Shown one piece after another: positions 5,953 to 47,159 of a stretch of 47,159 nt of DNA; positions within the stretch are counted from its first letter, which is position 1; every line of letters begins with the position of its first letter. The notes under the pieces were generated by a model. It saw only the letters and a list, made by a program, of their open reading frames with translations, had not been told where the DNA came from and made no database searches. Made by a program: the position numbers and the translations under genes. This DNA is from Halobacteriovoraceae bacterium (GTDB lineage: Bacteria; Bdellovibrionota; Bacteriovoracia; Bacteriovoracales; Bacteriovoracaceae): positions 57,500 through 104,658 of the forward strand of contig PAKC01000061.1 of the NCBI GenBank assembly GCA_002706205.1. Direction: 5' to 3'.

Positions 5953-7308
5953 ATGAGCCAAGCAATTCTTATTTCTGATAATGAGGTCATTAATTCTTTG
6001 TACGAAGTTAATCTGAGAGCGTATGTGGCCACCAATGTCACTATTAAGCCCAGTGTTAATTCGGCGATAGAATTATTAAATCAAAGTCCTAATGTCGATG
6101 CTGTTATTTGTTTTGCTCAAACCAAAGGGCTAAAAGAGTTGGAAGATTTTTTTAATTCGAGTGAGTTAGAAACTCCATTGATTATTTTAGGCTCAGATCA
6201 GACTTCACCATTGGCCAATTGTTTAGTCGTGAAGAATAAATACGATATTAGAAGTCTTTTACAAGCGATGGCAAAAATTTTGGAAGTTACGGCCAAAGAA
6301 ATGGCCAGTATGCGAGTGCCAAAATACTTTCCGATTCCTCTGAATTTATTTTCACAAATAGAGCTTGCTCATTGTGATGTCTTTTTTCGTAAGAAAAAAG
6401 AAAATTTTGAATACGATTATTTTAAAATCATTGAAAAAGATGCTCCTCTTCAGGAGCAATTACAAAAATATAAAGAGCAGGGAGTTGAACATCTATACGT
6501 GGATGCTGATGAGCGGCTTAGGTTTATCAATAAAGCTTCTAAAGCGGTGATAGGAGAGTTGGATCGAGAAGATTTAAGAACTGATGAGCGGATGGAGATT
6601 ACCCAGCAAGGTATGGGGATTGTCGCCCAAGAGATTTTTGAAAGCCAAGAAATTTCAGATGAGCTTGCAGAAGTTTCTAAAGCTTGTATTGCTTCCATTG
6701 AAAAGATTTGCAAAGATGTCCCTAAGCTTAAAAGTCTACTTTCTTTATTATTAGAGAACCAGGCCGATTATTGTTATCGTCATTCGGTTTTAACCACGTA
6801 TATCGCTAATCAAATTATTGGAAAAATTTCTTGGGGAAGTTTAGAGCAGCAAAACAAAGTGGCCTTCTCATTATTTTTTCACGATATTTATTTAGTTCCT
6901 ATATATAAAAAATATAAAAATGCAGTTTCAGAAGAAGACCTTTTATTTATGGATGAAGTGAGTGAAGAGGATAAACAAACAGTTGTAGATCATGCAAAGC
7001 TTGCTGGCCAATTAGTTAAAACATTTCCTCGTTGTCCCATTGGGGCAGATATGATCATTACCCAACATCATGGAATGACCAGTGGACAAGGTTTTGCCGT
7101 TAATTTTAAAGATGATATTTCACCTTTATCTAAAATTATGATTATAGCTGAAGATGTGGCCACTAGTCTTTTAGTTCAACTGGGAAGCAAAGACGGCCAG
7201 AAAAAATTAAGTCTTAATAAAGAACAAATGATGACACGTTTACAAGAAAGATACCGCAGTCATACTTATCGCAAAATAATTGAAGCCTTTGGAGAAACTA
7301 AACTTTAA
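5953..7308 (+). CDS. Response regulator-like protein with HD-GYP-like output domain
   Basis: N-terminal REC-like fold; C-terminal YRHSVLTTYIA...FFHDI...QHHGMTSGQGFA resembling HD-GYP. Confidence 0.7.
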   Translation: MSQAILISDNEVINSLYEVNLRAYVATNVTIKPSVNSAIELLNQSPNVDAVICFAQTKGLKELEDFFNSSELETPLIILGSDQTSPLANCLVVKNKYDIRSLLQAMAKILEVTAKEMASMRVPKYFPIPLNLFSQIELAHCDVFFRKKKENFEYDYFKIIEKDAPLQEQLQKYKEQGVEHLYVDADERLRFINKASKAVIGELDREDLRTDERMEITQQGMGIVAQEIFESQEISDELAEVSKACIASIEKICKDVPKLKSLLSLLLENQADYCYRHSVLTTYIANQIIGKISWGSLEQQNKVAFSLFFHDIYLVPIYKKYKNAVSEEDLLFMDEVSEEDKQTVVDHAKLAGQLVKTFPRCPIGADMIITQHHGMTSGQGFAVNFKDDISPLSKIMIIAEDVATSLLVQLGSKDGQKKLSLNKEQMMTRLQERYRSHTYRKIIEAFGETKL

Positions 7309-8674
7309 GAATATTTTTGGTGATATTTAAAACTTCCTTAAACACGCCATGATTATAATCCCGACTCATGGTTTTTAGCACTTTAGAAAGATAATTATTA
7401 TCTATTGTCTGCCCATCAATACTAGCAGCAATATATTGGGCCGTATTAAACACGGCACATATCTGAGTGAGACGAGAGCTTGAAGGTTTATTGGGAAAGC
7501 CTTTGCGGTTGGGCAATTCGTGATGATTTTCGATAATATAGTCAATATCGGCATAAGTGCTAAATTGTTTGGCATACTCTGAAGCGCTCATAGGATGATT
7601 AAGATAGAGCTTAACTTCTTCTTCACTGTATTTTTTAAGCTCAGGAGAAGTGCCTGAGTTTATTTTAGTCATTTCTTCTTCAGGGAGAGTGATATCTTGC
7701 AGTAAAGAGCAGATAGTTAATTTCATTTTTGTGGTTTCACTTTCCCATCTGAGTTTTTTTGCAATGGCCGCACATATATAAGCTGTTAACAAACTTTTAC
7801 TGGCAATACCTTGATAAAAATAAGGATAGGTCGCTAAAATATGTTGGAGTGACTCTTTGGCCTTATAGGTTTGATTAACTGAGGTGGCAATACTATTGGC
7901 CAAAGTTAAAACACTAGGAGTCACACCTAGGGCGACTATATATTGATGTAAAATTGTCACGGCCCTTAAATGGAGTAAATAAATATCTTTATGCTTAGGG
8001 GACATGCTTTTAAGTCCCTTGATACATTTAAGGCTTTCACTTTCAAGATATTTTAATTGATCATCTTTTCTGATATGCAGGTACTTTACGTTTTTTTTAG
8101 CGTAAGTAGAAAGAGTCGAGTGGGCGTAGTTTTTATTGGCACTAATAATTTTAATATAAGTACTGCTGGTAATGGCCAAATAAATATCGTAGGGGAATTG
8201 ATTATAAAGATAAAAAGCTTTAATTTTCATGGGAAGATAGTCTTCAGGATTGACCTCTTCTATAGATTGTTCAAACTCTTCATCCTTGGCCCAACGTAAG
8301 CAATTATCAATTTTTTCTCTAAATTCAGGAATAAAGTCAGCTCGATCCAAAGGCTTTAAAATAGTCTCGTTGAATTCATTTGATTGATATAGCTCTTGAG
8401 TAATCCGATTGCTAATGACAGATTCATGCCCAATAAAAACGATAGGTCTACTGCCGGCAAAGTCAATTAAATCCATCCCAAGCTGATTGGGATCACTTTC
8501 ACGCATATTACAATCGATAATTAAAAAACCAAAGGGTCCATCTACAGTTGCCGCATTTAAGGCGTCTTCGGTATTGATGGCACAAACCAGCTGAATTTGG
8601 GAATAATTGGCCTTAAGCACATTTCGCATAAGCTCCCAATCTGATTTATTGTCTGAAATTAAAAGTGTTTTCAT
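7298..8674 (-). CDS. Response regulator with degenerate HD-GYP-like domain
   Basis: N-terminal REC (LLISDNKSDWELM...FLIIDCNMRES); C-terminal LLQDI...ENHHELPNRKGFP. Confidence 0.72.
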   Translation of the reverse strand: MKTLLISDNKSDWELMRNVLKANYSQIQLVCAINTEDALNAATVDGPFGFLIIDCNMRESDPNQLGMDLIDFAGSRPIVFIGHESVISNRITQELYQSNEFNETILKPLDRADFIPEFREKIDNCLRWAKDEEFEQSIEEVNPEDYLPMKIKAFYLYNQFPYDIYLAITSSTYIKIISANKNYAHSTLSTYAKKNVKYLHIRKDDQLKYLESESLKCIKGLKSMSPKHKDIYLLHLRAVTILHQYIVALGVTPSVLTLANSIATSVNQTYKAKESLQHILATYPYFYQGIASKSLLTAYICAAIAKKLRWESETTKMKLTICSLLQDITLPEEEMTKINSGTSPELKKYSEEEVKLYLNHPMSASEYAKQFSTYADIDYIIENHHELPNRKGFPNKPSSSRLTQICAVFNTAQYIAASIDGQTIDNNYLSKVLKTMSRDYNHGVFKEVLNITKNILKV

Positions 8675-8756
8675 AATACTATTTTACCAAAGTTTTTTGT
8701 TTCTTTGGCTTTTCGGTTATAATAAAAAAATCATAATAAAATCTATAGGTTAGATC

Positions 8757-9209
8757 ATGAATAAGACTTTTGAACAGTACAAGGCCAATCTTTTAAGCTC
8801 TATTCCCGTTGTTAAGGGGATGGAGGTGGATATAGTAGAGGTATCTGACTATAAAACTATAGTTTCTGCCCCCTTGGGAACTCATGTCAATTATGAGGGA
8901 ACTGCTTTTGGGGGAAGTCTTAATACTTTATGCATTATTGCCTCCTATTTATTAGTCCATCATCATATGAAAATTAAGGGCATTGCTTTTGATTCTTTAG
9001 TGATTCAAAACTCTCAGATTGAGTATTTACACCCGGTAGAGTCTGATTTTAGGGCCACAGCTCAAATTGATCCCAAGGCTTGCGTCAGTTTTTTAAAAAT
9101 ACTAAGACGAAAAGGAGTGGGCAGAATTGGTGTTTCTAGTTTTATAAGTTCGTCTACATCAGATAAAGAATTAGTGAAGTTTCAAGGACGCTTTGTCGCC
9201 AGTTTGTAG
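8757..9209 (+). CDS. Putative thioesterase (YiiD C-terminal domain / hotdog-like)
   Basis: GTHVNYEGTAFGGSLNTLCIIASYLLVH resembles the YiiD_C thioesterase signature. Confidence 0.6.
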   Translation: MNKTFEQYKANLLSSIPVVKGMEVDIVEVSDYKTIVSAPLGTHVNYEGTAFGGSLNTLCIIASYLLVHHHMKIKGIAFDSLVIQNSQIEYLHPVESDFRATAQIDPKACVSFLKILRRKGVGRIGVSSFISSSTSDKELVKFQGRFVASL

Positions 9210-9245
9210 TCTTGCTATTTATTAAAGTGCTCCCATCTTATTAAA

Positions 9246-9977
9246 ATGGAAATTGAAAAAAGATTTATAGAAAATTATTTGACCCATCGAAAATACAGTT
9301 ATGGGAAATTATTTTCGTTTTTGTTTATTGGTCTATGTGTGGTTTTTAGCCAGTTTTATTGGGATCAGTCTTTAAGTTTATCTCAGTATCTGAGTGCCAA
9401 TCCTAAATTAGTCTTTGAAGAAAATGAGTTGTGGCGCTTATTTTCGACCAGTTTTGTTCATGGGGGGATTGAGCACTTACTTTCAAATTCTTTAATGCTT
9501 TTTATTTTAACTTATTTTGTAACCTCTTTTTATGGCGCCAGTGTTTCTTTTGGTCTTGGCATTTTAGCTGGGGCGATTATCAATGCTTTTGTGATCATGC
9601 AATACGAGAACAATACCACTTTGGTGGGAGCATCTGGCATTGTGTTTTTTTTATGGGGTTTTTGGCTTATTTTATATTTGTTTATTGAAACTCAGTATAG
9701 CTGGCCAAGTCGTCTGTTAAGAGTTTTGGGCGTATTTATTATTCTTTTAGTTCCAACTTCTTATGTGCCTAATACAAGTTATTTGGCCCATTATTTTGGC
9801 TTTATTTTAGGTTTAGCTTTTGGTTCTTCTTATTTTCTCTTACATAAACAGCGTATTCGCTCTTATGAGAAGTGGGAATATCGAGTGGTTTCTGGGCCTG
9901 AGCCGAATTTAGAACAATTAGCTGAGCGGCCTGAAGCTATAGAGGAAGAATCTTTTTGGCGAGATCCTCAAGAATAG
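9246..9977 (+). CDS. Rhomboid family intramembrane serine protease
   Basis: ELWRLFSTSFVHGGIEHLLSNSLML, VGASGIVFFLWG (GxSG) and SYLAHYFGFILGLAFG catalytic segments. Confidence 0.88.
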   Translation: MEIEKRFIENYLTHRKYSYGKLFSFLFIGLCVVFSQFYWDQSLSLSQYLSANPKLVFEENELWRLFSTSFVHGGIEHLLSNSLMLFILTYFVTSFYGASVSFGLGILAGAIINAFVIMQYENNTTLVGASGIVFFLWGFWLILYLFIETQYSWPSRLLRVLGVFIILLVPTSYVPNTSYLAHYFGFILGLAFGSSYFLLHKQRIRSYEKWEYRVVSGPEPNLEQLAERPEAIEEESFWRDPQE

Positions 9978-13717: not shown

Positions 13718-14086
13718 GGGGGTGCACTGGTTTCGACAGGGTTATTGAAGGATTGGGTGCGTGTCTAGGTTGATCGGCAGGCCTAGTTAAAAGCCGATTA
13801 AATTATATTCGACAACAATGTAGAATACGCTTACGCTGCCTAATCACAAGATTATAGCACGTAATGAGGGGCCTACACCGATAACAAAAAGTAGGTAAAG
13901 ACCTTTGAGGGAAGGTCGGAAAACTAAACCCTACGTGGGTGCCAGGCCTCCACGCTAAATCCCCACTGGGTTTTGTGTATTTGACAAAATACTCACAGCC
14001 GTCACTTGCTCTAATGTGACTACACACGTAGGACCCTCTTTTGGATATGACTTTGGACGCGAGTTCGATTCTCGCCACCTCCACCA
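13718..14086 (+). ncRNA. ssrA: tmRNA
   Basis: 5' GGGGGTGCACTGGTTTCGACAGGG and 3' GCGAGTTCGATTCTCGCCACCTCCACCA pair as the tRNA-like acceptor; internal tag ORF ...DNNVEYAYAA-stop ending at 13843. Confidence 0.97.
14051..14086 (+). other. Probable attachment site (left junction) of the integrative element, within the ssrA 3' end
   Basis: Tyrosine integrase gene <1 kb downstream of ssrA; the 3' tRNA-like end is a classical integration target. Core boundaries not resolvable because the other junction is outside the window. Confidence 0.7.
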
Positions 14087-14385
14087 CTCGACCCAATGAG
14101 TGGTGGGCTTCCCCGGAAAATGAGTAGACAAGTAATTTAAATAATTTATAAACCCAATCCCAATAGGCGTTTAGCTCAATCCCTTCCTTTATCACACAAA
14201 ATCACTTCACATCACATGAGTTGTGCTACAGAAGTGCTTCACTGGTGCTACATTCAAAAATCTACCCACATTTTTGGACTACGCTGTGTAGTTTAGACCT
14301 CAATTTCATAGCTTAAGTTTATGAAATGATTGTACTACTTAGTGTATCCGTCAAAGGGCTCCTAACCATTTTTAAAGGAGCTTTT

Positions 14386-14739
14386 ATGAAAGTAAAAAGA
14401 AAGAAGAAAAGAAGAAGTGATCACAAGGTCATGACAAAAGAAGCATCTCTTTTGAAGTTTTTAAGAGAGTCTAGAAATCTTTCCATGCGAAACGCAGGGG
14501 CAATAATTGGAGTCTCTAGTAGTTTTGTAAATCATGCAGAGAATGGAAGATTAGATCTAAACACAGCAATTATTCTTAAGTTTCTTAAGGCCTATGGATA
14601 TAGCCTTTCGGACTTTGAAAGTATGAAGAAAGGCAATATTGAACTTCCTGAACATACTTTATCGGAATGCATAGAGATCTTAAAAAGACTTGAGCCAAGT
14701 AAATTAAAAACAGTCAAAACAATATTAGAGAGCTTCTAG
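14386..14739 (+). CDS. XRE-family HTH transcriptional regulator
   Basis: HTH LLKFLRESRNLSMRNAGAIIGVSSSFVNHAENGRLDLN; ATG at 14386 preceded by AAAGGAG. Confidence 0.8.
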   Translation: MKVKRKKKRRSDHKVMTKEASLLKFLRESRNLSMRNAGAIIGVSSSFVNHAENGRLDLNTAIILKFLKAYGYSLSDFESMKKGNIELPEHTLSECIEILKRLEPSKLKTVKTILESF

Positions 14740-14747
14740 GGGGAGTC

Positions 14748-15788
14748 ATGGGAATTAAGTACAATCGTAAAAAACGCAGTTGGGAAGTCAGTTATTCAAA
14801 AAGGCACCCACTTACTAAAAGGCCTTATTCACTTAGAAGAATAGGCATAAAGTCAAAACCTGAAGCAGAGAAGGTTTATAGGGAGCTTATTGTTCAGTTA
14901 AATGAAAAACTAGCAACCGTTCACCATCCAATGTGGAAGGACACTGTTTTAGAGTTCCTAGAAGATTATAGAAACAGAGGAGTAAAAGAAGCAACGGTCT
15001 TAAACTATCAGCATTCATTAGGGGCACATACCTTTAAAAGGTGGGAGATGACTCCAATTTATATGATTAAGACCCATGATATTCGTACTCTTATTTTAAA
15101 TGATCTCGAATCAAAGTCTGAATGGACAAGAAAAAGCTTTCATAAATATCTAAATGCAGTTTTTAATTTTGCTCTTGAGAAAGGCATTATTAATAAAAAT
15201 CCTATGCCTAAATTAAATTTTAAGGTTAACCAAAAAATCAAAAAGGTACTTACAGAAGGTGAAATTAAGTTATTTTTAAAAGCAGCCAGAGAAGATCAAA
15301 ATCTATGGTTTCCTATATGGGCAACAGCTTGCTTTACAGGAATGAGAAATGGAGAGTTGTATGCTCTTAAATGGGAGGATGTCAGTCTATCAAAAAGGAC
15401 TATGGTGATAAGAAGGTCATGGAATAGATATGACGGTTTTAAAGATACAAAATCTGGAGATGATAGAGTCATTGAAATTGCTCATGCTTTAGCAGATCTT
15501 ATTGAAAAACTTCCAAAATGTAATGAATTCGTACTTCCAAGACTTGAGGATTGGGAAAAGGGACTACAGTCAAAGAGACTTAGAGAATATTTAAAAACAC
15601 TAGGTCTTCCTGAAATTCGTTTTCATGATCTTCGTGCATCTTGGGCGACAGTCATGCTTTCCAAAGGTGTTGAACCAATAAAAGTTATGGCCATGGGTGG
15701 ATGGAAAGATCTTAAGACAATGCAAATTTACGTTAGGAAGTCGGGGATTCATATTCAGGGGATTACTGATTCATTGGACTTTTTGTAA
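14748..15788 (+). CDS. int: Tyrosine recombinase/integrase
   Basis: Catalytic motifs TGMRNGELYALKW, FHDLRASWATVML, GGWKDLKTMQIYVRKSG; adjacent to ssrA 3' end. Confidence 0.95.
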   Translation: MGIKYNRKKRSWEVSYSKRHPLTKRPYSLRRIGIKSKPEAEKVYRELIVQLNEKLATVHHPMWKDTVLEFLEDYRNRGVKEATVLNYQHSLGAHTFKRWEMTPIYMIKTHDIRTLILNDLESKSEWTRKSFHKYLNAVFNFALEKGIINKNPMPKLNFKVNQKIKKVLTEGEIKLFLKAAREDQNLWFPIWATACFTGMRNGELYALKWEDVSLSKRTMVIRRSWNRYDGFKDTKSGDDRVIEIAHALADLIEKLPKCNEFVLPRLEDWEKGLQSKRLREYLKTLGLPEIRFHDLRASWATVMLSKGVEPIKVMAMGGWKDLKTMQIYVRKSGIHIQGITDSLDFL

Positions 15789-21389: not shown

Positions 21390-24300
21390 ATGCATAGTTC
21401 TCCGGACACTAAGGAAAAGTTTTCGTCCCAAATACCAGCAGCTAAATTGTTTCAACAAATTGGTTACAAGTATCTCACTCCAGGAGAAGCGAATGACCAG
21501 AGGCGTAATACAACAAAAAATGTTCTCCTTTACGATATCTTATCAACATCGCTAAAAAATCTTCCCTGTAACCAAATTGAACATAATGGAGAACTTGTCA
21601 CTCCACCAGATGACTTAATTAGAAATGCAATTAAGCATATTGATCATCCTTCCACAGAAAATTTAATTAATGATAATAAAGAGCTTTATAACAAGCTCGT
21701 ACTTGGTGAAACTTTTAAAGGTACAATCGATGGCCAAGAGGTTTCTAAACACATTCGTTATCTCGACTTTTCTGAGGAAGGCAGAGAAAAGAATGAACTT
21801 CACTTTACTGAAGAGTACTCAGTCTTAAGAACAGGTATTGATAAAGACTATCGTCCTGATATTGTTTGTTTCATTAATGGAATTCCTCTAATTATTATTG
21901 AGAATAAAAGAAGAGGAAAAGGGCAAATCTTCAAAGGAATTGAAGACCATATTAAAAAACAGCAAGATGATGGGATTAAAAGATTATATGTTTACTCACA
22001 AATTTTGCTTTCTATGTGTGGTAACAGAGCAAGATATGGTGCTCTTGGTGCTACAGTAAAATTCTGGAAAGGATGGAATGAAGATCCAGATAATGAAAAA
22101 ATAGAACTTCCTAAGCTTGAAGGTATTATTCAGACTGAGCCACCAAAAGAGTTTAAAGAAAGTCTTTTCTCTTGGCGAAATGATGGTGACCTTGATGAGA
22201 TGGAAAAACAGTGGAGTAATATAATTGCTGCTACAGAGCAAGATAAGCTTATTTACTTCATGCTAAGAAGGGATCGAATTCTAAGAGAATTGAGTTCATA
22301 TATAGTTTATGAGGGCGATACTAAAATTCTTGCAAGACATTATCAGTTCTTTGGGGTTGAAAAAGCCTTGGAAAAGATAAGTAGGCTTGATGAAAATGGT
22401 GTCCGTGAAGGTGGGCTTTTTTGGCATACGACTGGTTCAGGTAAATCTTTAACAATGGTTATGCTTGCCAAGAGTATTTTTGAGTCCGGACGATTCAAAG
22501 ATCCAAGAGTCGTTTTAGTAACAGATAGAGTTCATTTGGATTCAAATGTTTATGATGCCTTTCATGATTGTGGATTCAATATTAAAAAAGTAAAGCGTGG
22601 CCAAGCTGAAAAGACATCCAAAATAATTTTAGATCGTAATTATAAGGTGCTTTCAACTGTTATTGATCGATTGGAGAACCCTCTTAAATCATTTAAAGCA
22701 ATTGATGATTCAGATGAAACATTTATATTTGTTGATGAGGCACATAGAACTCATTCTGAGGTAAGTCATAAACGAGCGATCATGAGGGCTGTGTTTCCAA
22801 AAGCTTCGGTTATAGGATTTACTGGAACACCTGTCGTTAAAAAAAATAATAACTCTGTAGAGCTTTATGGTGGTTGGATTCATAAACATACTATGGATAA
22901 AGCTCTTGAAGAGGGAGATGTATCAAGAATAATCTATTCGAATAGACACTGTCCTCTAGATGGAGATGACAAGAGTTTAGAACGATGGTTTGAGAGACGT
23001 ACAGAACAAATGAGTACAGATGCTCAAACAAAAATCAGAAAAATTTTTAAGAGTCAGGATGAAGTATTAAAGGCTTCGACCCGAAGGGCAGAGATTGCTT
23101 ATGATATTTCAGTCCATTTCAAAGCAAACTATCGTGTTGATGAAGATAAAGTAGGTCTAAAAGGGATATTTGCGACCTCATCCAAATATGAAGCATTAAA
23201 ATACACTCAGCTCTTAGAGGATAATGGCATATCAGCTAATCTTGTGATTTCAGACAGCTCCGAAAACGAGGGAGAGGTTACTCTAAGAAAAAATGAAAAA
23301 GAAGAAATTCAGAAATATTGGAAAGAAATCGTTGAAAATAAATATGGCGGGGAAGATAAGTATAACGACCATATTTTAAATGCTTTTAAGCACAAAAGAG
23401 AACCTGAGATCATTGTCGTTGTTGATAAATTACTCACTGGATTTAACAATCCCCGTGCAGCAGTTCTTTATACAGATAAAAGATTGAAAGATGATAAAGT
23501 ATTACAGGCCATTGCTAGAGTAAATAGAGTCTTTCCTGGAAAAGAATATGGTGAGGTTGTCGATTATAGAAATATTATCGGAAGCGTAACTTCAGCCATT
23601 GAATTTTATAGAAAACTAGAAGATGAGGGATACGATCCTGAAGAAATAAAAGGTGCTATTTTTGATGTCGAATCGGAAATTGAAGATCTAGACCAGTTAT
23701 TAGAAAATGTTTGGGCTTGCTTTCCTGAAGACAGTGCCACATTTAAAAGAGGTGATCAAACATTAATGGTTGCTCACTTACTATCCAAAGAGCCATATGA
23801 AGCCTTTATGATTGCCTTAAAGAAGTTTCACTACAAATATAAACTTGCAAGAGGCTTCTATAAGTGGGTTAAAGAAACTTCTCCAGAAAAACAAGAAAAA
23901 ATAAAATCTGATTTTAAATACTTTATTGCAATTAGGGCCGAGGCAGAAGATGAACTTGGTGGTAATGATGGCGTTACATATGCTGATCTAGTAGATGATA
24001 TTAGAAAATTTGTTGAGGATAAGATTAGTGCTGATCCACCAGTAGTCAAATTAGATAAAGTAGAAATTTTCTCTAAAGAGTACGAGGATAGAAATAAGAA
24101 AAAGAAGTCAAAACGTTCTCAAGCAGATTCAATTCGTGTAAGACTAAAAAACTATTTTGAAGAAAATTGGGATGATGACCCAATTCTTGGAGAAAAGATT
24201 AGTGATATTATTAACCAAACCTATGAAGACTTTCATAATCAACTCATCGATGACATTGAATACTTCAATAGAATGGAAGACTATTTAAAAAGAACTAAGG

Positions 24301-24605
24301 AAGGTACAACATTTACCTATCCTGAAGGGATTGGTGGAGAGCCTGAATTAGTCGCTTATTACAATATATTCAAAGAAGAGGGTATCAAGTTAAGTGATGC
24401 TGAGTATTTGAAATTAGTTGTTAAGATTCAAACAATCATTTCAAATTTGAAAAAAGTCGATTGGGTTAGAAAAAACGATACAAATGATATGGAAAAAGCA
24501 CTATTAGAGGAGGTCATTTGGGATCTAGATCTTGAATTAGGAGATAGAGAAGACCATGTGATTGGAGAAATTATTAATAGAGCAAAAAGGTATCAAGGTC
24601 GTTAA
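21390..24605 (+). CDS. hsdR: Type I restriction endonuclease motor subunit
   Basis: IENKRRGKGQ nuclease region, GLFWHTTGSGKSLTMVMLAK Walker A, FVDEAHRTHS, GFTGTP, IARVNRVFPGKEYGEVVDY. Confidence 0.95.
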   Translation: MHSSPDTKEKFSSQIPAAKLFQQIGYKYLTPGEANDQRRNTTKNVLLYDILSTSLKNLPCNQIEHNGELVTPPDDLIRNAIKHIDHPSTENLINDNKELYNKLVLGETFKGTIDGQEVSKHIRYLDFSEEGREKNELHFTEEYSVLRTGIDKDYRPDIVCFINGIPLIIIENKRRGKGQIFKGIEDHIKKQQDDGIKRLYVYSQILLSMCGNRARYGALGATVKFWKGWNEDPDNEKIELPKLEGIIQTEPPKEFKESLFSWRNDGDLDEMEKQWSNIIAATEQDKLIYFMLRRDRILRELSSYIVYEGDTKILARHYQFFGVEKALEKISRLDENGVREGGLFWHTTGSGKSLTMVMLAKSIFESGRFKDPRVVLVTDRVHLDSNVYDAFHDCGFNIKKVKRGQAEKTSKIILDRNYKVLSTVIDRLENPLKSFKAIDDSDETFIFVDEAHRTHSEVSHKRAIMRAVFPKASVIGFTGTPVVKKNNNSVELYGGWIHKHTMDKALEEGDVSRIIYSNRHCPLDGDDKSLERWFERRTEQMSTDAQTKIRKIFKSQDEVLKASTRRAEIAYDISVHFKANYRVDEDKVGLKGIFATSSKYEALKYTQLLEDNGISANLVISDSSENEGEVTLRKNEKEEIQKYWKEIVENKYGGEDKYNDHILNAFKHKREPEIIVVVDKLLTGFNNPRAAVLYTDKRLKDDKVLQAIARVNRVFPGKEYGEVVDYRNIIGSVTSAIEFYRKLEDEGYDPEEIKGAIFDVESEIEDLDQLLENVWACFPEDSATFKRGDQTLMVAHLLSKEPYEAFMIALKKFHYKYKLARGFYKWVKETSPEKQEKIKSDFKYFIAIRAEAEDELGGNDGVTYADLVDDIRKFVEDKISADPPVVKLDKVEIFSKEYEDRNKKKKSKRSQADSIRVRLKNYFEENWDDDPILGEKISDIINQTYEDFHNQLIDDIEYFNRMEDYLKRTKEGTTFTYPEGIGGEPELVAYYNIFKEEGIKLSDAEYLKLVVKIQTIISNLKKVDWVRKNDTNDMEKALLEEVIWDLDLELGDREDHVIGEIINRAKRYQGR

Positions 24606-26693: not shown

Positions 26694-27626
26694 ATGGAGT
26701 GTTCAGTGAGTAGTGATTTTAGAATATTGACGATCGATGGAGGGGGAATAAGAGGTGTTGTACCAGCCCATATATTAGACTGCCTCTCTACAAGGCTTAA
26801 AGTTAACATTAAAAATAACTTTCAAATGTTTGCCGGAACAAGTACTGGTTCAATCATTGCTGCTGGCCTTGTGTGCGATGTGGACACAACAAAAATACTT
26901 AATTTATATAAAGAAAAAGGGCCGCTAATTTTTAAAAGCAAACCTTCTATACTTCCTGAAAAATTAAAATTTGGTTTTAAAAGTCTCTATGACAATAGCG
27001 GTCTTATGGAAGTCCTAAAAGAAGTATTTCAAGACTTAAAACTAGGGGATATTTCAACACCTTTACTATTACCTTCAACAGATATCGGAAATGGTAATGT
27101 TCATGTTTTTAAATCTTCATACTCTAATGACTTTACTCGAGATAAAGATGTATATGTAAGAGATGCAGTACTCGCTTCGTGTAGTGCTCCCATCTATTTT
27201 GATCCAGCTAATCTTAGTGAATATGCTCTTGCTGATGGGGGACTGTGGGCAAACAATCCATCTCTTTGTGCATTTATTGATGCCCAAAGACGTCTTAGTA
27301 TTCCTATGGATAATATAAAAGTCTTTTCTGTTGGAACTGGCCATGAAAATACTTTTTATGGCACAAATACTAAAAAGAACTGGGGTTTTATAAATGGATG
27401 GAAGGGAAAAGATTTTATAAGCTTTATTCTGTCACTGCAATCTCAATCCACACATAATTATCTTCAATTAATGATGAAGCCTGAAAACTTACTGCGAATT
27501 AACTTTGAATCAGATTTATCTCTGCCTCTTGATAATTATAGTGCGATTAAGGATTTAATTTCCAAGGCTGACAAAGAATTTACACACAACACTGAAAATA
27601 TAAAGAAATTTCTAGAGATTAAATAA
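26694..27626 (+). CDS. capV: Patatin-like phospholipase, CBASS effector (CapV-like)
   Basis: DGGGIRGVVPAHIL, GTSTG (GxSxG), ADGGLWANNPS; followed by CD-NTase. Confidence 0.9.
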   Translation: MECSVSSDFRILTIDGGGIRGVVPAHILDCLSTRLKVNIKNNFQMFAGTSTGSIIAAGLVCDVDTTKILNLYKEKGPLIFKSKPSILPEKLKFGFKSLYDNSGLMEVLKEVFQDLKLGDISTPLLLPSTDIGNGNVHVFKSSYSNDFTRDKDVYVRDAVLASCSAPIYFDPANLSEYALADGGLWANNPSLCAFIDAQRRLSIPMDNIKVFSVGTGHENTFYGTNTKKNWGFINGWKGKDFISFILSLQSQSTHNYLQLMMKPENLLRINFESDLSLPLDNYSAIKDLISKADKEFTHNTENIKKFLEIK

Positions 27627-27636
27627 GGAGATACCA

Positions 27637-28842
27637 GTGAACTCAGATGAAAAAAAGAAACAAATTATTAAAAAATTAATTGATAGATTAGAGCTACCTG
27701 ATGGAGCGTATGATCTAGCAGTAAAACGTTATCAAGATTTGGGGGAGTGGTTTGACAGAGACGAATCGACTCTAAAGGAATATAAACCACATATTTTTCC
27801 TCAGGGATCTTTTAGGTTAGGGACAGCAATAAAACCTAACTCTGGTGATGAATACGATTTAGATATCGCTTGTAAATTAACGGCAGGGATAGATAAAAGT
27901 ACACATACCCAGAAAGATCTTAAGACCAAAGTAGGTACCGAATTAGAAGCTTATATAAAAGCTAGAAATATCAAAGAAAAACTTGAAGAAAAACATCGTT
28001 GCTGGAGAGCAAACTATCAAGACTCTTTAAACTTTCATATGGATATTGTTCCATGTATTCCAGAATCAACGAATAGAAGAAAAAAAATCTATGATTCATT
28101 AATAAAACATGGTGCAGATGATTCAATTGCAGTTAGTCGTTCAGAGTTAACAGTTTCTATAACTGATGACAGAGACGATAATTACGAACAAATTTCGGAT
28201 GATTGGAAAATAAGCAATCCAGAAGGATATGCACAATGGTTTGAATCAACAATGAATAGAGCGATGAAGTTTGATTTATTAGAAAAATCAGCTCAAGTTG
28301 ATGAGGTTCCCTTATTTAAAAGAAAAACACCTCTTCAAAGAGTCATCCAATTATTAAAAAAACATAGAGACTTAATGTTCGAGGAAGATAAAGACTCTAA
28401 ACCAATATCAATAATCCTAACGACTTTAGCTGCTAAGGCGTATAAGGGGGAACAGGATTTTCATACTGCATTATCAAACATTCTAGATGAAATGGGAAAA
28501 CTTGTTAACAATACTTCGCCAAGAGTTCCAAATCCTGTCGATCCAAATGAAGACTTTGCAGATCGTTGGGCAATGGAAAAATATAGTCATCTTAACCTTG
28601 AAAATAATTTTTGGAACTGGTTGCAACAGGCAAAAAGAGATCTACAGCTTATGTTAGATTCTAATGATTCTCAATTTATATCAAAGCATGCACAGCAAAG
28701 ATTTGGTATAAGGCTAGATGAGAATGATCTTGCTAAGTCTTTAGGTTTTAATTCTGCGCCAGCAGTTCATGTGAAACCAAAACATCATCATGTTGAAGAT
28801 GAGAGTAAGCCTTGGAGTTTTGTTGTTAAAGATGAAAAGTAA
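27637..28842 (+). CDS. CBASS CD-NTase (cGAS/DncV-like nucleotidyltransferase)
   Basis: FPQGSFRLGTAIKPNSGDEYDLDIACKL (GS...DxD) and FHMDIVPCIPE third carboxylate. Confidence 0.92.
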   Translation: MNSDEKKKQIIKKLIDRLELPDGAYDLAVKRYQDLGEWFDRDESTLKEYKPHIFPQGSFRLGTAIKPNSGDEYDLDIACKLTAGIDKSTHTQKDLKTKVGTELEAYIKARNIKEKLEEKHRCWRANYQDSLNFHMDIVPCIPESTNRRKKIYDSLIKHGADDSIAVSRSELTVSITDDRDDNYEQISDDWKISNPEGYAQWFESTMNRAMKFDLLEKSAQVDEVPLFKRKTPLQRVIQLLKKHRDLMFEEDKDSKPISIILTTLAAKAYKGEQDFHTALSNILDEMGKLVNNTSPRVPNPVDPNEDFADRWAMEKYSHLNLENNFWNWLQQAKRDLQLMLDSNDSQFISKHAQQRFGIRLDENDLAKSLGFNSAPAVHVKPKHHHVEDESKPWSFVVKDEK

Positions 28843-38198: not shown

Positions 38199-38456
38199 AT
38201 GCCAATACTAATAAGTTTGTACTTATTTTTATCTAACAATGCATTTGCTCGAAGCTTAAAAGCAACAGCAGACAAACTTGCTCAAGAAACAACAAGAATT
38301 GGCCATGGGGTTGCTCTTTTTGGTTTAGTTGTTGCTGGCATCTATTTTATGATTGGAAAGCAAGATGCAGCTACTAAAATGACACAGGCCTTGATGGGTG
38401 TTGGGATTCTTATGCTAAGCCCGAGTATTATCACTTTTGTTAAAGGACTAGTGTAA
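38199..38456 (+). CDS. VirB2/TraA-like pilin
   Basis: 85 aa, signal peptide plus two hydrophobic helices, directly upstream of VirB3/VirB4-like genes. Confidence 0.7.
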   Translation: MPILISLYLFLSNNAFARSLKATADKLAQETTRIGHGVALFGLVVAGIYFMIGKQDAATKMTQALMGVGILMLSPSIITFVKGLV

Positions 38457-38707
38457 TGAAAAGGTATCCAAAATTTCTTAAAACACTTCCTGAGTTCTAT
38501 GGATTAAGTTTTTATGAAATAGGTGCGTTAATCGTCGGTCTATATTTAGCGATGATTTTAAAGCTCTCTCCACTATATACCTTGCTGACTTCAGCAATAT
38601 GTATTGGAGTGCTCAAAGTTATAAAAAGAAATTTTGACTTAAAGGCTTACTTTTTACCAACAAGAAAGGATTTAGATTTATCCGAATTTAAAAGGAGAAC
38701 TAAATGA
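38456..38707 (+). CDS. VirB3/TraL-like T4SS protein
   Basis: 83 aa, two TM segments, between VirB2-like and VirB4-like genes. Confidence 0.65.
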   Translation: MKRYPKFLKTLPEFYGLSFYEIGALIVGLYLAMILKLSPLYTLLTSAICIGVLKVIKRNFDLKAYFLPTRKDLDLSEFKRRTK

Positions 38708-40578
38708 TTCCCTTATTTGAAGTAAACGGACATGAACTAGTTTCCTTAAATGGTAAGAAGAGTTCTTTTTATCAGATCATTCCCTCAGATATTGAGGGGA
38801 TGACTGATTTTTCGCAAAAAGAGATTTTTAGTGAGCTTGAAAGAAACCTAGTTGATTATGAAGATATGGCCAAGATTTATTGGATTAATAATAAGCTTTA
38901 TATAAATGCTTTCTCTGATATCGAGTTGGCAAATGCAGAAATAAAGCCTTGTAATGAACCATTAACGACTTTTATCAATAATTACTCTGATCAGGTGAGT
39001 TTTTATGAGAATTACTTAACTGTTGGGAATGAATTTATCAGACTTTTATCAATAAAAGATTATCCAGCATCACTAAATCTACTAGAAACACAAATCTGGC
39101 CTGACTTTGTTTTAAATCTTAAAAAGATTGAAAAGACCCATGCTAAAACGAAGATAAACTTCAAAAGAAAGCTTCATTATTCAAATCTATTTAAGGGGAT
39201 GAGAGATGTTGATTCGGAGAATGCCTATAATGAAGCTGAAGATCTTCTTGATAGTATAGCGAGAGGTGATAGTGCTTTGTTTGAAGTTGAAACATTTTTG
39301 ATTATAAGGTCAAATTCGAAAGAATACTTAGATCAAAAGACAGAAGAGGTATTCCAAAATTTCAAAAGCATTGATGGTTACTTATTTCAAGAAGAAAGAG
39401 GTTTACCATATTTCTTTCAGTCACTTATACCTGGAGTCCCTGCAAGTTTTAAAAGATCTGATTTATGTCCATCAGGTTATCTGTCTTATCTATTACCATT
39501 TCATAGAGACTTTATTCATCTTGATGGACTAAAGCTAAGTTCAAGACAAGGTAATGATCTGTATATTAATTTATTCTCTAAAAGTGCAATTAATTACAAT
39601 GTTTTGATTACAGGAACATCTGGACAGGGAAAATCTATGATGGCCAATAAGATTCTAGAGCATGAACTGTCTAACGGCGTAAAGGGAATGATCTTAGACC
39701 TTGGAAACTCTTTTTATAAAACATCTAAGTTTTATAAAGGAGAAGTCCTTTCAGACAAGTTTAATCCAATGCAATTTAGAAATCCAAGATATCTAAAAGA
39801 ATTCATTTTATCTGTAATAGAGGAAAAGATTGGAAAAAAAGAAGAGGGGAAACTTTTTGAATCAATAAAATCAATTTTGGAGGGAGAGATTACCAAATTC
39901 TCAGATCTCCTGCTTGCATTAGAGAAGGATTTTGAAGGTATAAGCTACTATTTTAGCGAATTAGAAACCTTCTTCACGGAGGAAGAGTGTGAGCTTAATA
40001 ATTTAACCTATTGTGATTTCTCTAATTATCCAGAGGCAATGAAAGCACCTTTAATTATTTATCTCATTGAGTTCTTCAAACATTTAGAAGGAAAGAAGAT
40101 ATTTGTTTTTGATGAGTGTTGGCACTTACTAAACAAAAACGCAGATTATATTGCTGAGTGCTTTCGAACTTTTAGAAAGCATCAAGCAAGTGCAATCGCT
40201 ATTTCTCAAAATCTTGATGATTTTTCAATAACTCAACTAGGAAGAGTCATTATTCAAAATACTTATTGGAAATTCATGTTTAGACAAAGTCTTTCTGTTT
40301 CTGAATTCATGGATCAGCATACGATTGAGCTTTTAAATACAATCAAGTCAAAAAAAGGGGATTACAGTGAATTTTTACTACTGTCAGAAGATCATAAGAA
40401 GCCTATTCGTTATTATCCTTCTTACTTGGAATACCAATTATTTACTTCGGATAGGGAAGATAACAACAAGCTATTTAATTATATAAACACAAATAATGAG
40501 TTTTTGTCTTTTCAAGAATGCTTAATCAATTTTACAAAATTAAAACATCCATTCTGGGAGTATACAGATGAAAGATAA
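38704..40578 (+). CDS. virB4: VirB4/TraC-like T4SS ATPase
   Basis: NVLITGTSGQGKSMMANKIL Walker A; KKIFVFDECWHLLNK Walker B; QNLDDF. Confidence 0.92.
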   Translation: MIPLFEVNGHELVSLNGKKSSFYQIIPSDIEGMTDFSQKEIFSELERNLVDYEDMAKIYWINNKLYINAFSDIELANAEIKPCNEPLTTFINNYSDQVSFYENYLTVGNEFIRLLSIKDYPASLNLLETQIWPDFVLNLKKIEKTHAKTKINFKRKLHYSNLFKGMRDVDSENAYNEAEDLLDSIARGDSALFEVETFLIIRSNSKEYLDQKTEEVFQNFKSIDGYLFQEERGLPYFFQSLIPGVPASFKRSDLCPSGYLSYLLPFHRDFIHLDGLKLSSRQGNDLYINLFSKSAINYNVLITGTSGQGKSMMANKILEHELSNGVKGMILDLGNSFYKTSKFYKGEVLSDKFNPMQFRNPRYLKEFILSVIEEKIGKKEEGKLFESIKSILEGEITKFSDLLLALEKDFEGISYYFSELETFFTEEECELNNLTYCDFSNYPEAMKAPLIIYLIEFFKHLEGKKIFVFDECWHLLNKNADYIAECFRTFRKHQASAIAISQNLDDFSITQLGRVIIQNTYWKFMFRQSLSVSEFMDQHTIELLNTIKSKKGDYSEFLLLSEDHKKPIRYYPSYLEYQLFTSDREDNNKLFNYINTNNEFLSFQECLINFTKLKHPFWEYTDER

Positions 40579-42504: not shown

Positions 42505-42953
42505 TGAATTTTGATGATTTTGAAATGTCATATAGAAAAGAGAATCGAAAGCTTAAGTTAGCTTTAGCTATAACCTTGGTGATTACATCAATAACGACTT
42601 TAAGTGTTCTGCTTCAAAAAAAGTATTACCTTTATAAGGGAAAAGATATTTTTGAAGAAAGACCTCTAGCTACAGAAGTTTGTCGTTTAGGTTTTCAAAG
42701 TCTAGCAGAAGGGGAGCCAAATCCCTATGTCGTAACAGATGAAATAATTAATTTAGTAAGTAAAAATCCATTCTCACTAGTCATAGATAAAATTTTGAAG
42801 CTTGAATCACTAGAAAAGGGGGCTTGCAAAATTATTTTAAGATCTAATGGTAAATTACTGGCATTTAAGGTGGGACTAGCTGAAAGTTCACTTTATCCAT
42901 TTAATTATAAATTAATTCAGTTAGACGAATTAGCAGTAAAGGAGAATATATAA
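42504..42953 (+). CDS. TraE/VirB8-like T4SS protein
   Basis: 149 aa, short cytoplasmic N-terminus, single TM, periplasmic domain; position before TraK/TraB-like genes. Confidence 0.45.
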   Translation: MNFDDFEMSYRKENRKLKLALAITLVITSITTLSVLLQKKYYLYKGKDIFEERPLATEVCRLGFQSLAEGEPNPYVVTDEIINLVSKNPFSLVIDKILKLESLEKGACKIILRSNGKLLAFKVGLAESSLYPFNYKLIQLDELAVKENI

Positions 42954-43423
42954 TGACTTTTTATATATTAATGAATCAGATAACGACAATATTCTTAAGT
43001 TTAAATTTATTGACAACTCTTAGCTTTGATTCTGAAGTTATTAGTTATCTCTATGGTGGAAGTAAAGAAGAAATGTTCTTTCAGGTCACAAATAATAATC
43101 GAACATTGGCCTTAAAACCAATGATGGATGGGAACTATTCAAACTTATTGGTGATAACTAAAGAACGAAAATATTATTTTGATTTAAAGCAAACAAATCA
43201 AAACTCACATCAGTTTATTGAAATTAAAGATGGTGTTGCAAGTCATGCACTTACAAAAAAGATCAAAACAAAAGATTATGAAATATTAGAAGGACAAAGC
43301 TCAATACTCTTTGTGAACAATTCTAATAGTGAAGTCACAGTGAACTCAATAAAGGTAAAGAGTCGGGACTATTTTTCAAAGGGTGTACCAATTATTCTGA
43401 ATGGGAAGCGTATTCTTAACTAA
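42953..43423 (+). CDS. TraK/VirB9-like exported T4SS protein
   Basis: 156 aa, signal peptide, beta-rich, positional. Confidence 0.4.
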   Translation: MTFYILMNQITTIFLSLNLLTTLSFDSEVISYLYGGSKEEMFFQVTNNNRTLALKPMMDGNYSNLLVITKERKYYFDLKQTNQNSHQFIEIKDGVASHALTKKIKTKDYEILEGQSSILFVNNSNSEVTVNSIKVKSRDYFSKGVPIILNGKRILN

Positions 43424-43445: not shown

Positions 43446-44204
43446 ATGAAGAATCTAACGATTATATTGATCGTCTTGGGAGGCTTTGCTCAAAAAAGCG
43501 ATTTGTGGGCCAAGGAAGCAAGAATTACAAGACTCAGTATTAAGAATAATGTTCAAAAGACAATAAAACAAAGGAGGCCTAAAGGTGATTTACTTAAAAA
43601 CCTTATTCAAAACAACAAAAAACTTAACGAGTTACTTAAAGCGAGGACAGCAGCTCCTGTTATTTGGGAGGGACAAAAAAGAATCCTCACAGGAAAAACA
43701 TACCGTGGTACTCTTCTAAATACGATTGTATCAACCAATCAAGGGACACCTGTTCTTGTAAGGGCACATTTAAACCAAGGACTTCCATATAATAGTAAGT
43801 TCTCTTGTCTGGCCACAACTCAGAACAAGAGAGTTTATTGCGTATGTAATAAATTAGTCACAGCTTCAAAAGAAATTCCTATCCAAGCACAACTTCTTAA
43901 CATTGATGGTTCAAGTGGCCTAGAAGGACTTTATGAAGATGGAAAAGAGGATTTAATCGCAGGTGCTGTCATAAGTGATTTCTCACAAGGAATGCTTTCT
44001 GCTGCTCAAAATAGGATCGCAACACCTTTTGGAGCGATTCAAGATACGTCAGTAAAAAATCAGCTCTTACAAGGTGCAATTAATTCTGCAAATACGACTT
44101 CAGAAATTTTACTAGAAGAAATGAAGTCTGCTGTTCCTGTTGTAACGATTGTAGCGGGTACAGAAGTATTAATCTATTTTATGGAGGCAATAAATGAAAA
44201 TTAG
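43446..44204 (+). CDS. TraB/VirB10-like T4SS protein
   Basis: C-terminal VirB10-like beta domain (GKTYRGTLLNTIVSTNQGTPVLVRAHL...) and position. Confidence 0.6.
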   Translation: MKNLTIILIVLGGFAQKSDLWAKEARITRLSIKNNVQKTIKQRRPKGDLLKNLIQNNKKLNELLKARTAAPVIWEGQKRILTGKTYRGTLLNTIVSTNQGTPVLVRAHLNQGLPYNSKFSCLATTQNKRVYCVCNKLVTASKEIPIQAQLLNIDGSSGLEGLYEDGKEDLIAGAVISDFSQGMLSAAQNRIATPFGAIQDTSVKNQLLQGAINSANTTSEILLEEMKSAVPVVTIVAGTEVLIYFMEAINEN

Positions 44205-44700
44205 AATCCTAATTGTTTTAATACTTTGCTCATCATGTTCAACACTTAAAAAGTCTGTCACAAGTGGTGCTTTAATTGGTGGATTAGTTGGCGGAACAGG
44301 GGGAGCTGTGTTTTCACCTGATAGAGAATCCACAGACAAGAATGCTTATCTTGGCGGAGTTATTGGAGCAATCGCAGGGGCAGGACTCGCTTATTTGATG
44401 CATGACAAACCACAAAAGAAGGTAAAGGAGTCAATGTTATTAGATCAACCAATTCAAAATCATAAGGAGGTGCCATTATTTGATTTTTCACCAGAGCTAA
44501 AACACATTAAACCAGAAGTAAATTTTAAGCCAATTAAAAAGTATGAAGTTCCATTAGAGAAACTACCAAAAGAACTTGAGGGTAAAGTTAAAAAACAGTT
44601 CATTCTTGAGTATCAATCAGAGGCTCAAACAATTGAAGTCGGTAACAGAACAATTCAAATTAGTCCTTTTAAAGCGTGGGAGCATGTATATGAGCAATAA
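44194..44700 (+). CDS. Glycine-zipper lipoprotein, TraV/VirB7-like position
   Basis: Lipobox LCSSC; GALIGGLVGGTGGAVFSP...GGVIGAIAGAGLAYLM. Confidence 0.55.
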   Translation: MKIRILIVLILCSSCSTLKKSVTSGALIGGLVGGTGGAVFSPDRESTDKNAYLGGVIGAIAGAGLAYLMHDKPQKKVKESMLLDQPIQNHKEVPLFDFSPELKHIKPEVNFKPIKKYEVPLEKLPKELEGKVKKQFILEYQSEAQTIEVGNRTIQISPFKAWEHVYEQ

Positions 44701-46084
44701 AAAACAATCCCCTCAGTTAGATTTATTTACACCAGTCTACGAGGTATTTCATGAATTATGTCTACTTCTTCTTGAAGTAGGAAAGGAGGTTTTTAAATGG
44801 AGTTATAAAAAAGCTTTTAATAAATTACCAGAGTTGGAAAAGATAGACAGAAAAGCATTGTCTGTGAAGAAAACAACAGAAGTAGAAGATGCCTTAGGAA
44901 TTGATACTAAGTCGAGAAAAGAATTTTTACTTAATGAAATTGATTTTAGACGTCATAGTTTTATTGTTGGTGCATCAGGTTTTGGAAAAACAAACCTCAT
45001 GAGTATTTTACAGGAACATACTCTTAGGAAAAATAAGCCAATTATCTTCTTTGATCCCAAAGGGGATATGGAAGCCCTTAATACATTTAAAGGAATCTGT
45101 GAGAAGTATGAAAGGCCTTGTTATATCTTTTCAGAGCACTATGATGATTCAATATCACTTAACCCTGTTTTAGAAGGAACAGTTAATCAGGTTGTAGATA
45201 GAATAATGAGATCTTTTGAATGGAGTGAACCTTATTATAGAGATGCTTCAAGAAGAAGTTTAACTCAAGTCTTAAAATTATTAGAGATGGAAGGGCAGGC
45301 ATTTACTCTTCAAGCCATTTTCGATGAACTTGTGAAAATGGAATCAAAGGAAAACATAGGCCTTATTGCAAAGATAGAAGCCATCTTAGAATCAGACTTT
45401 GGAAAGATCCTCAATTCAGAACGTGAAGGATTAACTCTTTCTAAGATTAGAGATGAAAGAGCTTGTCTATATATAGGACTTTCTACACAGGGATATGGGG
45501 AAACAGCCATGTCGGTTGGAAAGTTATTTTTAGGAGAGCTTCTTTATAACTCTTATAAGACCTTAAGTGCAAAAGATGATCCTGAAGGAGGCCTTAAAAA
45601 TCCAATAAGCGTTTACTTTGATGAGTTTGGTTCATTAGTTACACCTGAGTTTATTGAATTGCAGAATAAATGTAGAGGTGCTGGAATTGAACTTACACTC
45701 GCTGTACAAACTGCATCTGATATTGATCGAATTGATCCTGATCTAACAAAACAAGTAATTGAGAATGCTGGAAATTTATTTGTCTTAAAACAGAGATTAG
45801 ATAACTCCGCTTCTTTATTTGCAGATGCTATCGGCACAATAACATCGAAGAAGGAAACCTTCATGATGGAAGATGGGCAACAGCAAAGCAAGGGAAGTAT
45901 TAGAGAAGTAAACGAGCTTCTTGTTCACCCAGATATCATCAAGAATTTAAGAATCGGTCAATGTGTTCTTTTACGACAAGGGCCAACAAGAATTAATTTA
46001 ATCAACGTGAGAAATAGAAAGATGGATGATTTTAAAAAATTGAATCGTCTTAAGTCTAAAAACTCACAAGCCTTAAACATTTAG
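44690..46084 (+). CDS. virD4: VirD4/TraD-like type IV coupling protein
   Basis: HSFIVGASGFGKTNLMSIL Walker A; VYFDEFGSLVTPEFIELQNKCRGAGIELTLAVQT; ATG at 44690 preferred over the ORF-track start. Confidence 0.92.
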   Translation: MSNKKQSPQLDLFTPVYEVFHELCLLLLEVGKEVFKWSYKKAFNKLPELEKIDRKALSVKKTTEVEDALGIDTKSRKEFLLNEIDFRRHSFIVGASGFGKTNLMSILQEHTLRKNKPIIFFDPKGDMEALNTFKGICEKYERPCYIFSEHYDDSISLNPVLEGTVNQVVDRIMRSFEWSEPYYRDASRRSLTQVLKLLEMEGQAFTLQAIFDELVKMESKENIGLIAKIEAILESDFGKILNSEREGLTLSKIRDERACLYIGLSTQGYGETAMSVGKLFLGELLYNSYKTLSAKDDPEGGLKNPISVYFDEFGSLVTPEFIELQNKCRGAGIELTLAVQTASDIDRIDPDLTKQVIENAGNLFVLKQRLDNSASLFADAIGTITSKKETFMMEDGQQQSKGSIREVNELLVHPDIIKNLRIGQCVLLRQGPTRINLINVRNRKMDDFKKLNRLKSKNSQALNI

Positions 46085-46095
46085 TAGGAGGGAGA

Positions 46096-46881
46096 GTGAA
46101 AGATTTAAAACATTTAAATAGTGTTTATATGAATTATTTAACACCGCTTTTGAAGTGGAGAGTTATGGATCTTGAAAGCTTAAGGAGTGAATGTGATGCA
46201 AACCCAAATTACTCTCACTTTGCGAGGGTCATCAGAAAGATGGAAAAAGCAAATGTATTGGAAGGATATAAACATCGATTTAATGGGAAGAAATATATCT
46301 TTTTTAGCCCATTCGGAGAAAGCCAAGTCGCAAAGGAAAAAAATGCGACTGCCATTTCTAAGGACTCTTTGATTCATGACATAAAAGTATCTGAAATTGC
46401 CAGAAACTTCATTAAATATGGCTGGATTGATCAGATCACTTTAGAACATGAACTACAAAACAAAAGAGACTTTAGAGCAGTTTATAAAGTTATTCCCGAT
46501 GCCTTATTAGAGACTCAAAGAGATGGGAAGAAGGTGCAAATTGCTTTTGAGCTTGAATTAACTCAGAAGCATAAACAAAGAATTAAAGAAAAGGCAAAGC
46601 AGTACATTATCAATAGTAGATATGACTATATTATTTACTTTTTCTCTAAAGAGCCTGTCATGAAAACATATATTGAAGTTATTAGTGAAGTTGTTGGTGA
46701 GAAGAATATAGGTAAGTTTCTGTTTGTTACAGATAAGGCCATGACTGCCAAAGTTACTGATCTTGAAAAATTGGAGGGTATTTGTCATGGGCAAAAGGTT
46801 TTGATTTCAAAGTTTTTGATGGGTGAAAATGGGGTGAAAGAGCACAACAGTGATAAAAAATCTTGCTCGCCAATTCGTTGA
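46096..46881 (+). CDS. Replic_Relax-like (replication-relaxation) protein
   Basis: N-terminal winged-helix-like region; VIPDALLETQRDGKKVQIAFELELTQKHKQRIKEKAKQY typical of this family. Confidence 0.65.
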   Translation: MKDLKHLNSVYMNYLTPLLKWRVMDLESLRSECDANPNYSHFARVIRKMEKANVLEGYKHRFNGKKYIFFSPFGESQVAKEKNATAISKDSLIHDIKVSEIARNFIKYGWIDQITLEHELQNKRDFRAVYKVIPDALLETQRDGKKVQIAFELELTQKHKQRIKEKAKQYIINSRYDYIIYFFSKEPVMKTYIEVISEVVGEKNIGKFLFVTDKAMTAKVTDLEKLEGICHGQKVLISKFLMGENGVKEHNSDKKSCSPIR

Positions 46882-46993
46882 AATTATTAATAAATCCCGC
46901 GCTCCGAAATTGACTCCCTCCCTCTCACGTTGATCGATGGATGGAGTCAGTATCTACGCGCGAGTAATAATTATCAGTCGTAAGGCGAGCAAG
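46862..46993. repeat. Four-tier nested inverted repeat, candidate oriT or structured regulatory element
   Basis: CTTGCTCGCC/GGCGAGCAAG (46862-46871/46984-46993); AATTATTA/TAATAATT (46882-46889/46965-46972); CGCGC/GCGCG (46898-46902/46958-46962); TGACTCC/GGAGTCA (46911-46917/46943-46949). Confidence 0.75.
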
Positions 46994-47010: not shown

Positions 47011-47159
47011 ATGGAAAATATAGATAAGGAAGAAGTAAAAAAAAGAGGAAGAAAACCAAAAAATCAAACAAAGGAAGTTCAAATCAATAAAGAGCAAACA
47101 AAGTTTTTTGTAGATTTGAGTAATGAACAAGAGAGTCTAAGTTTGATTTTTGATTTTCT
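47011..47159 (+). CDS. Partial ORF, basic AT-hook-like N-terminus, possible relaxosome accessory/DNA-binding protein
   Basis: MENIDKEEVKKRGRKPKNQTKEVQINKEQTKFFVDLSNEQESLSLIFDF..., preceded by AAGGAG; runs off the window. Confidence 0.5.
   Translation, partial: MENIDKEEVKKRGRKPKNQTKEVQINKEQTKFFVDLSNEQESLSLIFDF

Follow-up and report, generated by a model that had tools for sequence, protein, structure and literature searches.

A nested DNA hairpin beside a probable MOBC-type relaxase gene: a probable oriT for a family of integrative and conjugative elements in Bdellovibrionota

The window analysed here is a stretch of 47,159 nucleotides from a Halobacteriovoraceae bacterium (contig PAKC01000061.1), the right-hand part of which carries VirB/VirD4-type transfer genes, a Replic_Relax-like gene, a nested hairpin and the start of a basic ORF, here called ATh (Table 1). 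Beyond the window end (locus L002) ATh is followed on the same strand by genes coding for an SSB, an HTH_17 excisionase-like protein and a tyrosine integrase, and the VirB/VirD4 genes through the integrase make up a conserved segment on the right-hand side of an integrative and conjugative element. It had been suggested that a relaxase might be found past position 47159; the sequence there holds the genes just named, and the probable relaxase is instead the Replic_Relax-like gene ahead of the hairpin.

Table 1. Features of the transfer region and arms of the nested hairpin (window positions)
Feature	Position	Strand	Remarks
VirB2/TrbC-like pilin	38199..38456	+	
VirB4/TraC-like ATPase	38704..40578	+	
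VirB9/CagX-like	42953..43423	+	
VirB10/TrbI-like	43446..44204	+	
VirD4/TraD-type coupling protein	44576..46084	+	
Probable MOBC-type (Replic_Relax-like) relaxase gene	46096..46881	+	261 aa; N-terminal winged helix, PD-(D/E)xK-type core
Nested DNA hairpin, candidate oriT	46862..46993	.	fold, covariation, model score 126.8 bits on +
Outer arm left CTTGCTCGCC	46862-46871		10 bp, partner 46984-46993
Second arm left AATTATTA	46882-46889		8 bp, partner 46965-46972; less conserved among relatives
Third arm left CGCGC	46898-46902		5 bp, partner 46958-46962 (helix 2 in covariation test)
Inner stem left TGACTCC	46911-46917		7 bp, partner 46943-46949
Inner stem left arm and pyrimidine tract, TGAC-N3-C-Y8-AC motif	46911..46928	+	
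Hairpin centre	46918-46942		25 nt
Inner stem right GGAGTCA	46943-46949	+	7 bp, partner 46911-46917
Third arm right GCGCG	46958-46962		5 bp, partner 46898-46902
Second arm right TAATAATT	46965-46972		8 bp, partner 46882-46889
Outer arm right GGCGAGCAAG	46984-46993		10 bp, partner 46862-46871
ATh ORF start	47011..47159	+	122 aa, runs past window; basic AT-hook-like N-terminus

The hairpin is 132 bases long, starts 20 nt before the end of the Replic_Relax-like gene and ends 17 nt before the ATG of ATh. Its four perfect nested arm pairs (10, 8, 5 and 7 bp), its 25-nt centre and both flanking distances are exactly as the sequence-only reading had described them, and the fold of the segment surpassed those of 200 out of 200 dinucleotide shuffles, whether it was computed as RNA (z -5.35) or as single-stranded DNA of the + strand (z -5.24) or the - strand (z -6.48). 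The TGAC-N3-C-Y8-AC motif has one match in the window against 0.06 expected. An Rfam covariance-model search of the window returned tmRNA only and no family for the hairpin. An intrinsic terminator was ruled out, as no T-run follows the stem, and so was an integron attC site, the end boxes being absent.

ATh, a candidate relaxosome accessory for which a fold search gave no match, has homologues in 66 of the 129 genomes of the family. Its named relatives belong to Bacteriovoracaceae, Halobacteriovorax and other Bdellovibrionota MAGs, and a scan of 84,980 species genomes found essentially those only, besides records titled only "Proteobacteria" or "Oligoflexia". In about 83 of 88 loci the hairpin is found at the presumed start of ATh, a codon assigned by script, or a short way upstream of it. 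A second, distant ATh-like ORF (L002:6471-6836, E 4.6e-11), with no hairpin found upstream, is present beyond the window. Elsewhere in the window are a type I restriction HsdR-like gene (21390-24605), a patatin-like phospholipase beside a CD-NTase (SMODS) gene, which resembles a CBASS defence operon (26694-28842), and, at 13718-15788, an intact tmRNA gene (13718-14086) followed by a second tyrosine integrase (14748-15788) that probably marks an integration event separate from the element studied. The tmRNA gene was rejected as the attachment site of the element, because a comparison of the region after int with the window turned up no convincing direct repeat.

The sequence-only reading had recognised no canonical relaxase in the window, a view that has to be revised, as the Replic_Relax-like gene itself is a probable relaxase of the MOBC family. 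Its core residues (H94, P134-D135, E152-x-E154 and K158) make up the PD-(D/E)xK signature, and all six were invariant among 54 homologues. The window protein falls below the curated cut-offs, which are database thresholds and not biochemical features, of both Pfam Replic_Relax (16.4 of 25.3 bits, E 0.01) and NCBIfam (17.3 of 200, E 0.0023), and its assignment therefore rests on its family, in which 31 of the 54 homologues matched NCBIfam MobC (best 1.2e-14) and 15 matched Pfam Replic_Relax (best 3.8e-8). In a profile comparison against the MobC of a CloDF13-like plasmid (E 2.5e-10) the PD and E-x-E-x3-K motifs were aligned. The AlphaFold2 model of the window protein (pLDDT 91) combines a winged helix at the N-terminus with a core like that of restriction endonucleases, and gives moderate matches (best E 2e-3) to FokI, YaeQ, BstEII, PaqCI and MarR-type folds; a tblastn search of the relaxase against plasmids gave no match. 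The literature characterises MOBC relaxases as winged-helix enzymes of the PD-(D/E)xK type (PMC5714925, PMC12857230) and gives PF13814 as the MobC relaxase domain (PMC5357655).

Using covariance model R1, 94 distinct relatives of the hairpin were gathered, almost all of them from Bacteriovoracaceae and other Bdellovibrionota. The arms covary in alignments of both 27 and 94 sequences, evidence that is stronger than that of the fold. In the 27 aligned hairpins 94.4% of cells were paired as opposed to 81.5% in shuffled alignments and 34-45% in slid controls, double-change cells numbered 112 against 36 (0/500), and both sides had changed in 8 of the 10 pairs of the outer helix. Among the 94 distinct hairpins Watson-Crick cells reached 91.5%, compared with 55.6% when shuffled, a covariation to be read with caution since this alignment was fitted to model R1. 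Imperfect palindromes can also be repaired from a template, which may contribute to the covariation. Some inner columns mixed C-G, T-A and A-T with no mismatch among the 94 sequences. Mismatches of either kind were equally rare (G.T 1.9%, A.C 2.3%). Since RNA helices normally tolerate G.U over A.C, the element most likely acts as DNA, in the form of a hairpin or cruciform, and not as RNA. Pairing is retained although the sequences of the arms are free to vary, and the part most conserved in sequence is the apical TGAC-N3-C-Y8-AC, with GTCA opposite; in 108 hairpins A3 was invariant and T1 (104/108), G2 (102/108), C4 (101/108), A17 (97/108) and C18 (103/108) nearly so.

Complete elements share the order TraD-MOBC-hairpin-(ATh-SSB)-xis-int, and at most loci with enough flanking sequence TraD and MOBC lie directly upstream of the hairpin. 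Next to MOBC, the hairpin was also found paired with a serine instead of a tyrosine recombinase (L126, L127), also in members of further families within the phylum (L134, L135, L138, L140, L141, L144). Four loci (L054, L094, L096, L101) have kept ATh with no relaxase or type IV secretion genes within 3.5-5.9 kb upstream, and islands of 4-6 kb bounded by att repeats consist of the hairpin, xis, integrase and cargo only, with neither relaxase nor T4SS. Among these, L119 (4.4 kb) has 54-bp flanking repeats at tRNA-Gly and L122 (6.2 kb) has 51-nt repeats (98%) at tRNA-Met and two hairpins; L118, L124 and L018 are further repeat-bounded islands with the hairpin-xis-integrase-cargo arrangement. The constant partner of the hairpin is thus neither one integrase type nor a local relaxase, as predicted for a cis-acting oriT that is used in trans, and relaxase-less IMEs carrying an oriT have a published precedent (PMC5357655). 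Hairpins of an island and an element in the same genome shared the core exactly in three genomes (G121, G001, G018), a matching that was not significant in a permutation test (p 0.15, n 9).

Some further features of these loci were noted. The cargo of L118 (reverse-complement coordinates 7113-9574) includes genes that by eye are arsR-, arsC-, ACR3- and arsH-like, and two family hairpins stand side by side within one island at L116:3940-4892 and L122:9857-10273. At L048:1090-1375 the left part of the hairpin was apparently lost to a mobile-element insertion, beside an istA-type transposase-like frame.

A comparable structure was found in CloDF13 (L154), in which a 134-nt nested hairpin (9650-9783, DNA fold z -9.35) has the inner stem TGACCACCC...GGGTGGTC, and a MOBC-typed Klebsiella aerogenes plasmid has the same hairpin. 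Like the window family, CloDF13-type plasmids (NC_002119; NZ_CP142849) have a relaxase with the signature PD..E-x-E-x3-K, a coupling-protein gene adjoining mobC and a nested hairpin with an inner stem TGAC...GTC, the GGTGGTC core of which is identical in some relatives; 18 of 126 hairpins of our set start with TGACCAC and have GTGGTCA on the other arm, as in CloDF13. They differ in that they are mobilisable plasmids of Enterobacteriaceae, that their hairpin lies upstream of mobB whereas that of the window family is downstream of the relaxase gene, and that its apical region and outer arms are unrelated. Model R1 found no match in CloDF13, and so the likeness, judged by fold and core motif, is one of architecture and a short core, and may in part reflect convergence. 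In a Citrobacter MOBC plasmid (L156:3994-4025) only CloDF13-type outer arms were seen, GGGTGGTC being absent from the stretch fetched.

Other known systems resemble the locus in part. TraX of the enterococcal plasmid pAD1, also MOBC, was described as a restriction-endonuclease-like relaxase with an N-terminal winged helix (PMC12857230), and inverted repeats were reported in its oriT2 (PMC5587640); the binding site of TraX consists of five direct repeats at 70-120 bp from nic, and no such repeats are seen here, and the comparison is one of descriptions. Frpo/ssi single-strand promoters are likewise large ssDNA hairpins upstream of ssb, while the window-family hairpin lies beside a relaxase gene and has no conserved outward promoter boxes. 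Integron attC and IS200-type hairpins are imperfect ssDNA hairpins too, but their families are marked by GTTRRRY/RYYYAAC boxes that pair at the ends and by linkage to an integron integrase or Y1 transposase, and the window family has neither.

It was established that the hairpin is conserved and covaries by Watson-Crick changes, that it is linked to MOBC across the phylum, that it occurs in att-bounded islands devoid of a relaxase and that it is independent of integrase type. Taking this covariation, the relaxase linkage, the relaxase-less islands and the likeness to the hairpin of the CloDF13 mob region together, we consider it very probable that 46862-46993 is the oriT of an integrative and conjugative element family and that the adjacent MOBC protein is its relaxase.

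The sequence-only reading had offered an origin of transfer or a structured RNA, and of the two it is the former that is strongly supported. A leader or small RNA that controls expression of the ATh-ssb operon would agree with the strong RNA fold, on the coding strand and ahead of a start codon, but it is extremely unlikely given the missing Rfam match, a covariation that lacks G.U intermediates, and a position in which the hairpin overlaps the end of the relaxase gene and precedes unrelated genes. It was also considered that the hairpin might belong to the recombination module, as an attP accessory or as a binding site for Xis or integrase, as it lies just upstream of xis-int in tyrosine-integrase elements. 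The occurrence of the same hairpin with serine recombinases, the placement of the att repeats on the opposite side of int and the freedom of the arms to vary, unlike protein half-sites, make this very improbable.

There is similarly only a very small chance that the hairpin is a dso at which the MOBC protein starts rolling-circle replication of the excised element, instead of or besides transfer. MOBC proteins were discussed as possible rolling-circle initiators (PMC5714925) and the window protein matches PHROG 9381, "replication initiation by nicking" (E 6.8e-5), but the hairpin is kept in islands without any relaxase, and such a role would overlap oriT function anyway. A single-stranded promoter or primer site of the Frpo/ssi kind, from which RNA polymerase would transcribe ATh-ssb-xis-int in the recipient off the incoming strand while the oriT lies elsewhere, accounts for the DNA type of pairing and for the invariable position of the hairpin immediately ahead of the ATh-SSB-xis-int or xis-int operon, as expected of a regulatory element, and Frpo does sit upstream of ssb in enterobacterial plasmids (PMC11541004). 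This too is unlikely, as no outward -35/-10 pair is conserved in the stem and TGAC points to the loop (the profile being read by eye), the hairpin also stands between MOBC and serine recombinase genes, and the CloDF13-like core and the phylum-wide adjacency to MOBC would be left unexplained.

If the hairpin is the origin of transfer, MOBC would bind it, as a cruciform or on a single strand, and nick within the inner stem; TraD would then hand the strand to the VirB channel, and the hairpin may aid recognition and re-closure. The CloDF13-like core falls inside the inner stem of the hairpin. In CloDF13 itself nic, which we take to be GGGTG/GTCGGG, would fall in the right arm of the inner stem; a literature search for this sequence found no confirmation. 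Nic sites inside an inverted repeat were reported for related MOBC elements in the pMET1 paper (PMC2262945). By analogy, the window nick is predicted at GGATGGA/GTCAGT, between 46945 and 46946, probably on the + strand, or at the mirror site 46914/46915 on the - strand. With the + strand nicked and its 3' side leading, ATh, SSB, xis and int would enter first and the relaxase last, which is the usual order (PMC11541004). The + strand is the coding strand of ATh-SSB-xis-int, and direct transcription from the incoming strand would thus fail in that orientation; a promoter role would agree with transfer of the opposite strand, but the transfer genes would then enter first. The small elements that lack a relaxase probably carry the same hairpin to hitch-hike, in that a resident MOBC element would act in trans to mobilise the hairpin-xis-int islands. 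More speculatively, MOBC might recognise the shape of the hairpin together with a small motif at its apex, and not the sequence of the arms, while the hairpin, re-formed on the incoming strand, might start ssb-xis-int expression. One element would then combine the roles of oriT, termination signal and zygotic promoter, and islands without a relaxase would parasitise it across Bdellovibrionota; we hold this extended reading to be possible but doubtful.

A literature search found no conjugation origin described for predatory bacteria. The term "new type", used when the hairpin was first noticed, is too strong, as the probable window-family oriT is a new, widespread and sequence-divergent addition within the MOBC oriT kind. 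The hairpin provides a searchable oriT signature for the mobile elements of predatory bacteria and exposes a set of hitch-hiking islands, one of them with arsenic-resistance genes. It further links a non-HUH family of relaxases with a DNA hairpin that covaries and is also seen in CloDF13, and the poorly understood nicking mechanism of MOBC thereby becomes testable.
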